Shown piece after piece: positions 61,552 through 64,000 of a DNA stretch of 64,000 nt (within the stretch, counting starts at the first letter, position 1; every line of letters begins with the position of its first letter). The translations under genes were made by a program, and so were the position numbers. The stretch lies in assembly GCF_024178165.1 (NCBI RefSeq), contig NZ_JAMZIE010000002.1, forward strand, positions 124,001 to 188,000. Direction: 5' to 3'. The DNA is from Halohasta salina. GTDB taxonomy: Archaea; Halobacteriota; Halobacteria; Halobacteriales; Haloferacaceae. The notes under the pieces were generated by a model. That model searched no databases. It was not told where the DNA came from and worked only from the letters and a program-made list of their open reading frames with translations.

Positions 61552-62691
61552 ATGCGCCGCCGTCTCAGTGCGGGGACGATCGCCGGAGTCGGCATCGCAA
61601 CCGCCCTCCTGACGCTGCTGTTCGTCGGCAACCGGACGCCGCAGAGCGACATCGTTTTCGTGACCGACGCCGTCGTGCCGCTGTTGTTTTCGGCGTTGTT
61701 GGTCGGCGCGAGCTACTGGGCGCTGTCGGACCGCTCGGACGACCGGGCGATGGTGCGGCTGACGCTGTGGTGTCTCGCCGGCGGGACGGTCGTCGGGGGC
61801 TTCGAATTCCTGACGCTGTTCTCCCAGTCGGAGGGCGGGGTCGTCATTCAAAACGAACTCCAGACGCTGAACGCGGGGGTCGCCCGTGGGGCGGTCATGG
61901 GGTTGGCCTTCGGCTTTTACGACGTCGAGCGGCAGCGGACCAGACGCCGCGAGCGGCAACTCCAGCGGCAGGTCGACCGGCTCGAGGAGTTCGCTTCGAT
62001 CGTCTCCCACGACCTTCGGAGCCCGCTGACGGTCGCCCGTGGACGAATCGAGTTGCTGAAGGCGACCCACGACCTCGACGACGAACACGTCGACCAGATC
62101 GAGTTCGCCCACGAGCGGATGACCGAGATCATCGAGGACTCCCTCGCGCTGGCCCGAGGCGGCCACGAGGTGACCGATCCCGAGCCGGTGGCGATCGACG
62201 AGATCGCCCAGAGCGCGTGGCAGACCGCGGGCTCGGCGTCGGCAACGCTGGTCGTCGACGCCGAGGGGTCGATCGAGGCCGACGCCGATCGGCTCACACG
62301 AATGTTCGAGAACCTGTTTCGCAATAGTGTGGAGCATGGCTCCACGAGCAGTCGGCCGCAGGCCGACGACAGCGTGGAACATAGTCTCGACAGCGGCTCG
62401 GTGGCCGACGAGCCGGTCGACGAGACGGTCGACCACACCGCCGAAACCGACGTCGACCTCACGGTCACGGTCGGCTGGCTGGCCGACGAGGAGGGCTTTT
62501 TCGTGGCCGACGACGGGACGGGGATCGATCCCGACACCCGTGAGTCGGCCTTCGAGGCCGGCGAGACCGGCGGCGGCTCCGGCAGCGGTCTCGGACTGGC
62601 GATCGTCCGCCGGATCGCCGAGGCTCACGGCTGGACGGTCGAGATCACCGAGAGCCGTGAGGGCGGGGCGCGTTTCGAGTTCCGAATCTGA
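61552..62691 (+). CDS. Sensor histidine kinase, four-TM, with in-frame repeat insertion
   Basis: 379 residues. Four TM helices (about 8-26, 36-56, 69-89, 105-122), then a coiled helix and HisKA (H153 in SHDLRSPL). The HATPase has N-box ENLFRNSVEHG (253-263), G1 VADDGTGI (318-325), G2 GSGLGLAIV (344-352). Between the N-box and the following strand is a 40-residue insert (262-300) containing two copies of SVEH. In the other kinase of this window (1-771) only about 10 residues stand there. Signal and partner unknown. Located 43 nt after mat. Confidence 0.94.
   Translation: MRRRLSAGTIAGVGIATALLTLLFVGNRTPQSDIVFVTDAVVPLLFSALLVGASYWALSDRSDDRAMVRLTLWCLAGGTVVGGFEFLTLFSQSEGGVVIQNELQTLNAGVARGAVMGLAFGFYDVERQRTRRRERQLQRQVDRLEEFASIVSHDLRSPLTVARGRIELLKATHDLDDEHVDQIEFAHERMTEIIEDSLALARGGHEVTDPEPVAIDEIAQSAWQTAGSASATLVVDAEGSIEADADRLTRMFENLFRNSVEHGSTSSRPQADDSVEHSLDSGSVADEPVDETVDHTAETDVDLTVTVGWLADEEGFFVADDGTGIDPDTRESAFEAGETGGGSGSGLGLAIVRRIAEAHGWTVEITESREGGARFEFRI
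62326..62400 (+). repeat. In-frame 45-nt repeat unit with two hairpins inside kinase gene
   Basis: Unit 1 is 62326-62370 and a decayed second unit starts at 62371 (AGTGTGGAGCAT versus AGCGTGGAACAT). Unit 1 contains two perfect 7-bp inverted repeats with 3-nt loops: GTGGAGC (62329-62335)/GCTCCAC (62339-62345) and GTCGGCC (62351-62357)/GGCCGAC (62361-62367). Confidence 0.9.
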
Positions 62692-63597: not shown

Positions 63598-64000
63598 ATG
63601 CAGCAACCTTCCGAGCGGCTGACGGGCTGTTTCAGGCACTTCTTCGAGGAGCTCAACGACGCCGCCGTGAAGTTCGAACTCGTCGACGGCGAGCCGGTGA
63701 TCCGAGAGGCCAACGACGCCTTTCGGGACGTCTTCGGCTACGACGCCGGGCCGGTCGCCGGCGAGCCGCTGAACGACCTGATCGTGCCGGCGACCAAACA
63801 CGAGGAGGCCAAACAGTTCGATGAGCGCACGCGGGCCGGCGAGTCGAACGCGGCGATCGTCGAGCGGATGACCGACGACGGCGAGCGGAAGTTCGTCTAC
63901 CGGGGGGTCCCCTACCGGGACGACTACGGCTTTGCGGTCTACTCGGATATCACCGACGAACTCCAGCGCGAGCGGCACCTCGACGTGCTCCACCGGGTGC
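63598..64000 (+). CDS. PAS-domain sensor histidine kinase, N-terminal part (runs off window)
   Basis: First 134 codons from ATG 63598 (MQQPSERLTGCFRHFF). PAS domain about 15-120: AAVKFELVDGEPVIREANDAFRDVFGYD, then GEPLNDLIVP and RGVPYRDDYGFAVYSDITDE, the end of the PAS/PAC block. The last residues (RERHLDVLHRV) are the usual lead-in to the haloarchaeal HisKA helix, so the kinase domain should follow beyond 64000. Confidence 0.9.
   Translation, partial: MQQPSERLTGCFRHFFEELNDAAVKFELVDGEPVIREANDAFRDVFGYDAGPVAGEPLNDLIVPATKHEEAKQFDERTRAGESNAAIVERMTDDGERKFVYRGVPYRDDYGFAVYSDITDELQRERHLDVLHRV

Follow-up and report, generated by a model that had tools for sequence, protein, structure and literature searches.

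The window, meaning the whole stretch of 64,000 nucleotides of Halohasta salina DNA that was analysed, carries a gene for a membrane histidine kinase with a short palindromic unit in its coding sequence. The parts of the unit, its host gene and an unoccupied site in a neighbouring gene are collected in Table 1.

Table 1. Features of the kinase locus and of the neighbouring PAS gene (positions are those of the window)
Feature	Position	Strand	Description
Host gene	61552..62691	+	membrane histidine kinase, 379 aa; HisKA PF00512 E 1.7e-13; HATPase_c PF02518 E 5.2e-19
Palindromic unit	62326..62370	+	45 nt, AGT-hairpin 1-GAGCA-hairpin 2-GAC; encodes SVEHGSTSSRPQADD, kinase residues 259-273
Hairpin 1	62329..62345	+	GTGGAGC-ATG-GCTCCAC; encodes VEHGS(T), re-encodes the N-box
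Linker	62346..62350	+	GAGCA; family consensus RRGCA
Hairpin 2	62351..62367	+	GTCGGCC-GCA-GGCCGAC; encodes SRPQAD
Terminal GAC	62368..62370	+	reads GTC beside the stem on the other strand; compare the CGTC tag of some REPs
Putative displaced end of the resident N-box	62371..62382	+	AGCGTGGAACAT, SVEH; no intact hairpin
Empty site in PAS gene (63598-)	63687..63688	+	between GTCGAC and GGCGAG; alignment of window, L379 and L369

The preliminary description of this DNA had drawn the unit as two adjacent, perfect inverted repeats of 7 bp with 3-nt loops; sequence and folding (z = -3.9 for the DNA) both confirm this. Single hairpins of that form occur 18 times in the window; paired ones, no more than 10 nt apart, occur once, at this unit, against 0.02 expected under an order-1 Markov null. 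Chance as the origin of the hairpins is rejected on both counts, the folding and the pairing. An Rfam search of the kinase region matched no family.

The unit is read in the frame of the HisKA and HATPase_c kinase. Three orthologous kinases of the same genus (L066, L067 and L070; 76-81% identity) have no unit, and show a single SVEH or SLEH at the position of the AGCGTGGAACAT stretch. The preliminary description saw in that stretch the start of a diverged second unit. Because the sisters have one SVEH/SLEH there, and no hairpin is intact, it is better read as the end of the resident N-box, apparently pushed aside by the insertion, though it may be a heavily decayed unit. The placement of the insert, formerly put between the N-box and the next strand, stands in part. 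A structure model gives the N-box helix as residues 245-267, then an unstructured stretch of lower confidence, 268-302, and then the next strand; the unit is thus predicted to supply the final helical turns and a portion of the flexible loop. The loop before the next strand is where it had been placed; the insertion, however, falls at the N-box itself, which it re-encodes. An ordinary conserved loop with no copies elsewhere is rejected: sisters lack the unit, and copies do occur elsewhere.

Those copies are widespread among haloarchaeal kinases, and the majority lie at the N-box of histidine kinases. With up to two mismatches, the pattern of hairpin 1 is matched in 210 of 391 genomes of the class, and the matches include compensated variants such as GTGGAAC-GTTCCAC and GTCGAGC-GCTCGAC. 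When public genomes were scanned with exact hairpin 1, 47 of the 48 haloarchaeal loci among the matches listed lay, by translated context, at a kinase N-box in the same frame; the bacterial matches were scattered singletons. When 148 genomes of the phylum were scanned under strict filters, 18 of the 24 from Halobacteriales had units, and 0 of about 124 sampled from outside that order. Kinases retrieved by protein similarity hold from one to five units each, of 15, 16 or 17 residues (for example VEHGSTSSRPQADD, VEHGSTSPDSQARQD and VEHGSTGNQNAKRSD), and decayed copies are present in some (e.g. L226, L277, L282). Likeness between units is only slightly higher within arrays, at 0.775, than between them, at 0.739 (P = 0.13). 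Unit-to-unit spacing in the DNA is 45, 48, 51 or 54 nt in 159 of 159 instances, every one a multiple of three; RNA splicing or translational bypass of the unit is not favoured, because of these spacings and because the units contain no stops.

The anatomy common to the units is [AGM]-hairpin 1 (7 bp, 3-nt loop)-RRGCA-hairpin 2-GAC. The linker is GAGCA or GGGCA in 31 of 43 15-aa kinase units, and the same linker is found in non-kinase genes and at TnpB 3' ends. Hairpin 2 takes several forms: its stem has 7 or 10 bp when the loop is of 3 nt, and 6 bp in a variant whose loop is longer. GAC directly follows its stem on the 3' side in 53 of 97 kinase units (GACG in 30, GACA in 23); in another 28 of the 97, mostly of the 16-aa class, GAC starts within the stem. 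The 48-nt class (16-aa units, e.g. L236, L246, L281) has a conserved 10-nt loop, TCGCAGGCTC, between 6-bp arms, unlike the other classes, which have 3-nt loops.

What is conserved in these units is the nucleic acid, rather than the peptide. The silent-site test used units fetched by protein only (n = 109): Val3 and Ser3 are complementary in 90 (shuffle mean 46, maximum 67), and Glu3 and Gly3 in 91 (shuffle mean 54, maximum 70); two control pairings are at chance. Across 24 units the covariation score is 0.454, compared with 0.143 when shuffled and at most 0.072 when slid, and 8 pairs have changes on both sides. Of the 7 pairs of hairpin 2, 6 have changed in a compensatory way among 24 units; two of the residues that this hairpin encodes, 10 and 12, swap jointly (T-S, P-A, A-P, S-T, P-D, T-C), with mutual information of 1.08 against a null maximum of 0.57. 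Judged from sequence, the stems are shown to be held by compensatory change irrespective of what the protein says. The mismatches that do occur in stems are 32 A-C and 18 G-T, a difference to which third-position codon bias toward C adds. As G-U pairs in mRNA and A-C does not, the commoner A-C mismatches leave no excess of wobble and no sign of mRNA-specific selection. Decay of the two hairpins is weakly correlated (Spearman 0.25, P = 0.013); this, together with the decayed kinase copies, fits elements that have no host function.

A covariance model was built from 24 kinase units, the window's own among them, so that its score of 69 bits in the window is by construction. Besides two tandem units in a glucose/sorbosone dehydrogenase (GSDH) of the same genome, the model finds about ten other non-kinase genes with one unit or a tandem, as well as noncoding copies, including sites next to TnpB genes. 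Non-kinase copies score mostly 35-55 bits; the background in unrelated bacterial DNA is at most 24 bits away from the selecting hairpin-1 sites and at most 32 bits at them. Non-kinase copies that lie in genes in sense orientation are always in the same frame. Their hairpin-1 stems often differ (GAGGAAC, GAGGGAC, GCGGGAC), and most non-kinase copies keep the linker, hairpin 2 and the terminal GAC. The sole antisense in-gene copy seen is a unit-like element inside a phosphoglycerate-mutase-like gene (L360, G161:C32). In another genome, tandem units lie between two genes, and the stop codon of the upstream ORF falls within hairpin 1 of the first unit (L336, G135:C1:1753881).

Empty and filled versions of one site are found within the genus for four genes. 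The kinase of the window is filled, and its counterparts L066, L067 and L070 are empty. The neighbouring PAS gene is empty in the window, and filled in two other genomes (G283 and G068) by exactly 45 nt between GTCGAC and the next Gly or Ser codon. GSDH is filled in G000 and empty in G283, at 95% identity. In another kinase, L052 is empty and the corresponding L361 is filled. In most cases the insertion comes after an AC codon, frequently GTCGAC. One PAS junction (L369) runs from GTCGAC through an insert ending in CGAT to GGCGAG, with no exact duplication; yet most units end in GAC, and since this equals the GAC of the 5' flank, insertion may involve a short target duplication. Mobility is here inferred solely from presence and absence, and units this short carry little phylogenetic signal. 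The proposal made in the preliminary description, of a copied, hairpin-forming, protein-tolerated element dispersed through the family in the manner of the palindromic elements of Rickettsia, gains support from this recurrence and from the sisters that lack the unit; many haloarchaeal kinases have the unit, in a single frame and with copy numbers that vary, and it is also present outside kinases and in noncoding DNA.

Some IS1341-type (TnpB) transposons have, at their 3' end, a two-hairpin module much like the unit: several of the noncoding copies stand some 100 nt 3' of TnpB genes (Pfam PF07282, PF01385), antisense to Rfam RF02656 sot0042, the omega-RNA of haloarchaea, which they abut or overlap (sotRNA is omega-RNA; PMC12558985). 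In some TnpB elements the unit sits in the loop of the element's terminal hairpin. The module is carried by 1 of the 30 top TnpB loci, so the link is to a subset of TnpB elements only. TnpB as such is rejected as the source, because many TnpB 3' ends finish in a TAGGG(T/A)GGGGTAGTTCAC-type sequence without the module. Transfer may have run from transposon end to genes, or from genes to transposon end. Y1 transposase genes are present in 9 of 12 genomes tested, the window's own included; in the other three, all unit-bearing (G030, G161, G373), no match to Y1 transposase was obtained. Two further observations concern TnpB ends. Near-identical TnpB copies with the module stand at both ends of one 120-kb contig (L352/L353, G058:C3), perhaps an assembly repeat or a terminal duplication. 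Several haloarchaeal TnpB 3' ends (L406, L420) have a different short hairpin, and end in a TAGGGTGGGGTAGTTCAC-like sequence soon after the stop codon.

These units are best, and most simply, accounted for as non-autonomous, palindromic mobile mini-elements, PATE-like and related to some IS200/IS605 ends, that are translated when they come to lie in frame; the probability of this reading is put at roughly 0.7. In outline, a strand of its DNA would fold into hairpins and be copied in that form, for which Y1 (TnpA) transposases of the IS200/IS605 family, working in trans, are plausible enzymes; the element would land 3' of an AC or GAC codon. Its terminal GAC would rebuild its own target, each unit becoming the target of the next, and tandem arrays would thereby be explained. 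Persistence in proteins would follow from the properties of the unit: in one frame it has no stop and a length divisible by three, and the loop that it encodes is hydrophilic, acidic and disordered, of a kind suited to halophilic proteins. At the kinase N-box, insertion would be tolerated because hairpin 1 re-encodes the interrupted VEHG: the protein regains its motif, and the 15 added residues form a disordered loop ahead of the next strand. A copy whose stem differed would abolish the N-box and would not survive. A host function would not be required, and old copies would decay.

A different perspective locates the whole history in the kinases themselves: an ancient 15-aa duplication at the N-box would have spread, without transposition, as paralogous kinases underwent unequal crossing-over and gene conversion with one another. 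The near-confinement of exact hairpin 1 to one kinase motif and one frame (47 of the 48 haloarchaeal loci among the matches listed), the tandem spacing of 45, 48 or 51 nt, and the conserved flanks that kinases share and that recombination could use are all in keeping with this. It does not predict, however, that the same architecture should occur next to TnpB and in genes of other kinds, where the stem sequences are often different, nor the antisense copy in the phosphoglycerate-mutase-like gene, the exact 45-nt presence or absence in the PAS gene, or the two units in GSDH; and a protein repeat gives no reason for base pairs to covary at silent sites. The non-kinase copies largely refute this account, which is unlikely as a whole; as the main route among kinases it is possible. 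Recombination between paralogous kinases probably does contribute to the spread of the mobile element as well, because transposition alone does not explain the strong preference for the kinase N-box.

Two other explanations address the pairing itself. Template switching during replication, a documented mechanism (PMC8794818; PMC8604942), can homogenise the arms of a quasi-palindrome, so that an element inserted once would stay perfect; this predicts pairing at the level of DNA with no preference for wobble, as is seen. It leaves unexplained the new copies at empty sites, the linker and GAC end that are fixed across unrelated genes, and the decay of some kinase copies. As a sole cause it is improbable; as an additional process that helps to keep the stems of a mobile element perfect, it may operate (PMC8794818). 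Least probable of all is that the host preserves in its kinase genes a functional mRNA element formed by the hairpins, with a role in translation, stability or RNA binding. Compensatory pairing is strong across divergent units, and the RNA fold reaches -25 kcal/mol; but G-U does not exceed A-C among mismatches (18 and 32, codon bias toward C contributing), orthologous kinases do without the unit, some copies are decayed, and the unit is also found in unrelated genes and in noncoding DNA.

The mobile mini-element is less nameless than the preliminary description supposed when it knew of no named class in haloarchaea, because the palindrome-associated transposable elements (PATEs) of Haloquadratum have been published. 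These are IS605-derived and include terminal-only versions of 52 bp, according to the part of that account consulted (PMC3119063), to which the following comparison is confined. Both are haloarchaeal, lack a transposase, are related to IS605-type ends and show lineage-specific insertions, here the empty and filled sites of four genes within the genus. At 45-51 nt, the unit is too short for a transposase gene. PATEs have palindromes near their termini and no terminal inverted repeats; the hairpins of the unit lie 3 nt from each end, and its ends, AG(A/C/T)...GAC, do not form an inverted repeat. Two further traits of PATEs are the lack of a target duplication and mobilisation by TnpA; for the unit, the L369 junction has no exact duplication but most units end in the GAC of the 5' flank, and Y1 genes are present in 9 of 12 genomes. 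IS605-type palindromes find their parallel in the module near TnpB 3' ends beside sot0042, at 1 of the 30 top TnpB loci. The unit differs in its size of 45-51 nt, with two adjacent hairpins and a fixed 5-nt linker, in its tandem arrays, and in its in-frame coding copies, of which that part of the account describes none for PATEs (PMC3119063). A full-text literature search, with subscription papers mostly outside it so that absence is not proof, found no prior description of VEHGST peptides or repeats in haloarchaeal kinases, and both repeats and insertions go unmentioned in a census of archaeal two-component systems.

Palindromes that code in frame are known from Rickettsia, Wolbachia and Methanocaldococcus jannaschii (reviewed in PMC2996958, PMC3733652). 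Like the Rickettsia palindromic elements (RPEs), the unit is inserted in frame at tolerant sites of unrelated proteins and also occurs outside genes; it belongs to another lineage, with another architecture, and is strongly concentrated in one protein motif, which it re-encodes. By description, then, it appears to work like an RPE, and is not classed as one. CGTC-tagged REPs, which include RPE-4 and RPE-6, resemble it in having a short stem-loop with a (C/T)GTC tag next to it (on the other strand, the GAC[G/A] that follows hairpin 2), and have known intragenic copies. As published, their stems are 8-9 bp long and have A-T outer pairs, their loops measure 4-5 nt, and they have a CCA tail and no association with a transposase (PMC3733652); the unit has stems of 7 or 10 bp, mostly 3-nt loops, an outer pair that is mostly G-C, and the association with TnpB. 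PARCELs are likewise tandem in-frame repeats with dyad symmetry in their DNA, but they are 25-aa amphipathic repeats in proteins of unknown function, with imperfect palindromes and a bacterial and eukaryotic distribution (PMC2996958); the unit, of 15-17 hydrophilic residues, is not one of them. By this comparison, the unit seems to combine in haloarchaea the traits of PATEs and of in-frame coding palindromes.

If the reading as a mobile element is true, these proteins hold segments shaped by selfish DNA instead of by protein function, and haloarchaea join the organisms whose proteins have taken in mobile palindromes. A fuller version can be offered tentatively, with the odds somewhat against it: an order-wide coding palindrome that targets the kinase N-box, heals it by re-encoding the motif in a hairpin arm, and moves as single-stranded DNA with IS200/IS605 machinery, the TnpB end module being its source or sibling, so that dozens of signalling proteins would have loops dictated by DNA pairing. 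The possible link to TnpB/IS200-IS605 transposons would be of interest for coding palindromes, whose mobilising enzyme has been unknown. As a practical caution, neither covariation nor the conservation of repeats in these kinase loops is to be taken for protein function. The units also provide a large, testable set of natural cases: many kinase units, pairs of empty and filled sites between close relatives, and covariation of amino acids caused by the pairing of DNA. Among the kinases, two (L347, G267:C10; L215, G093) hold four to five nearly identical units in tandem, which suggests recent expansion, and possibly variation in copy number within the ATPase domain.
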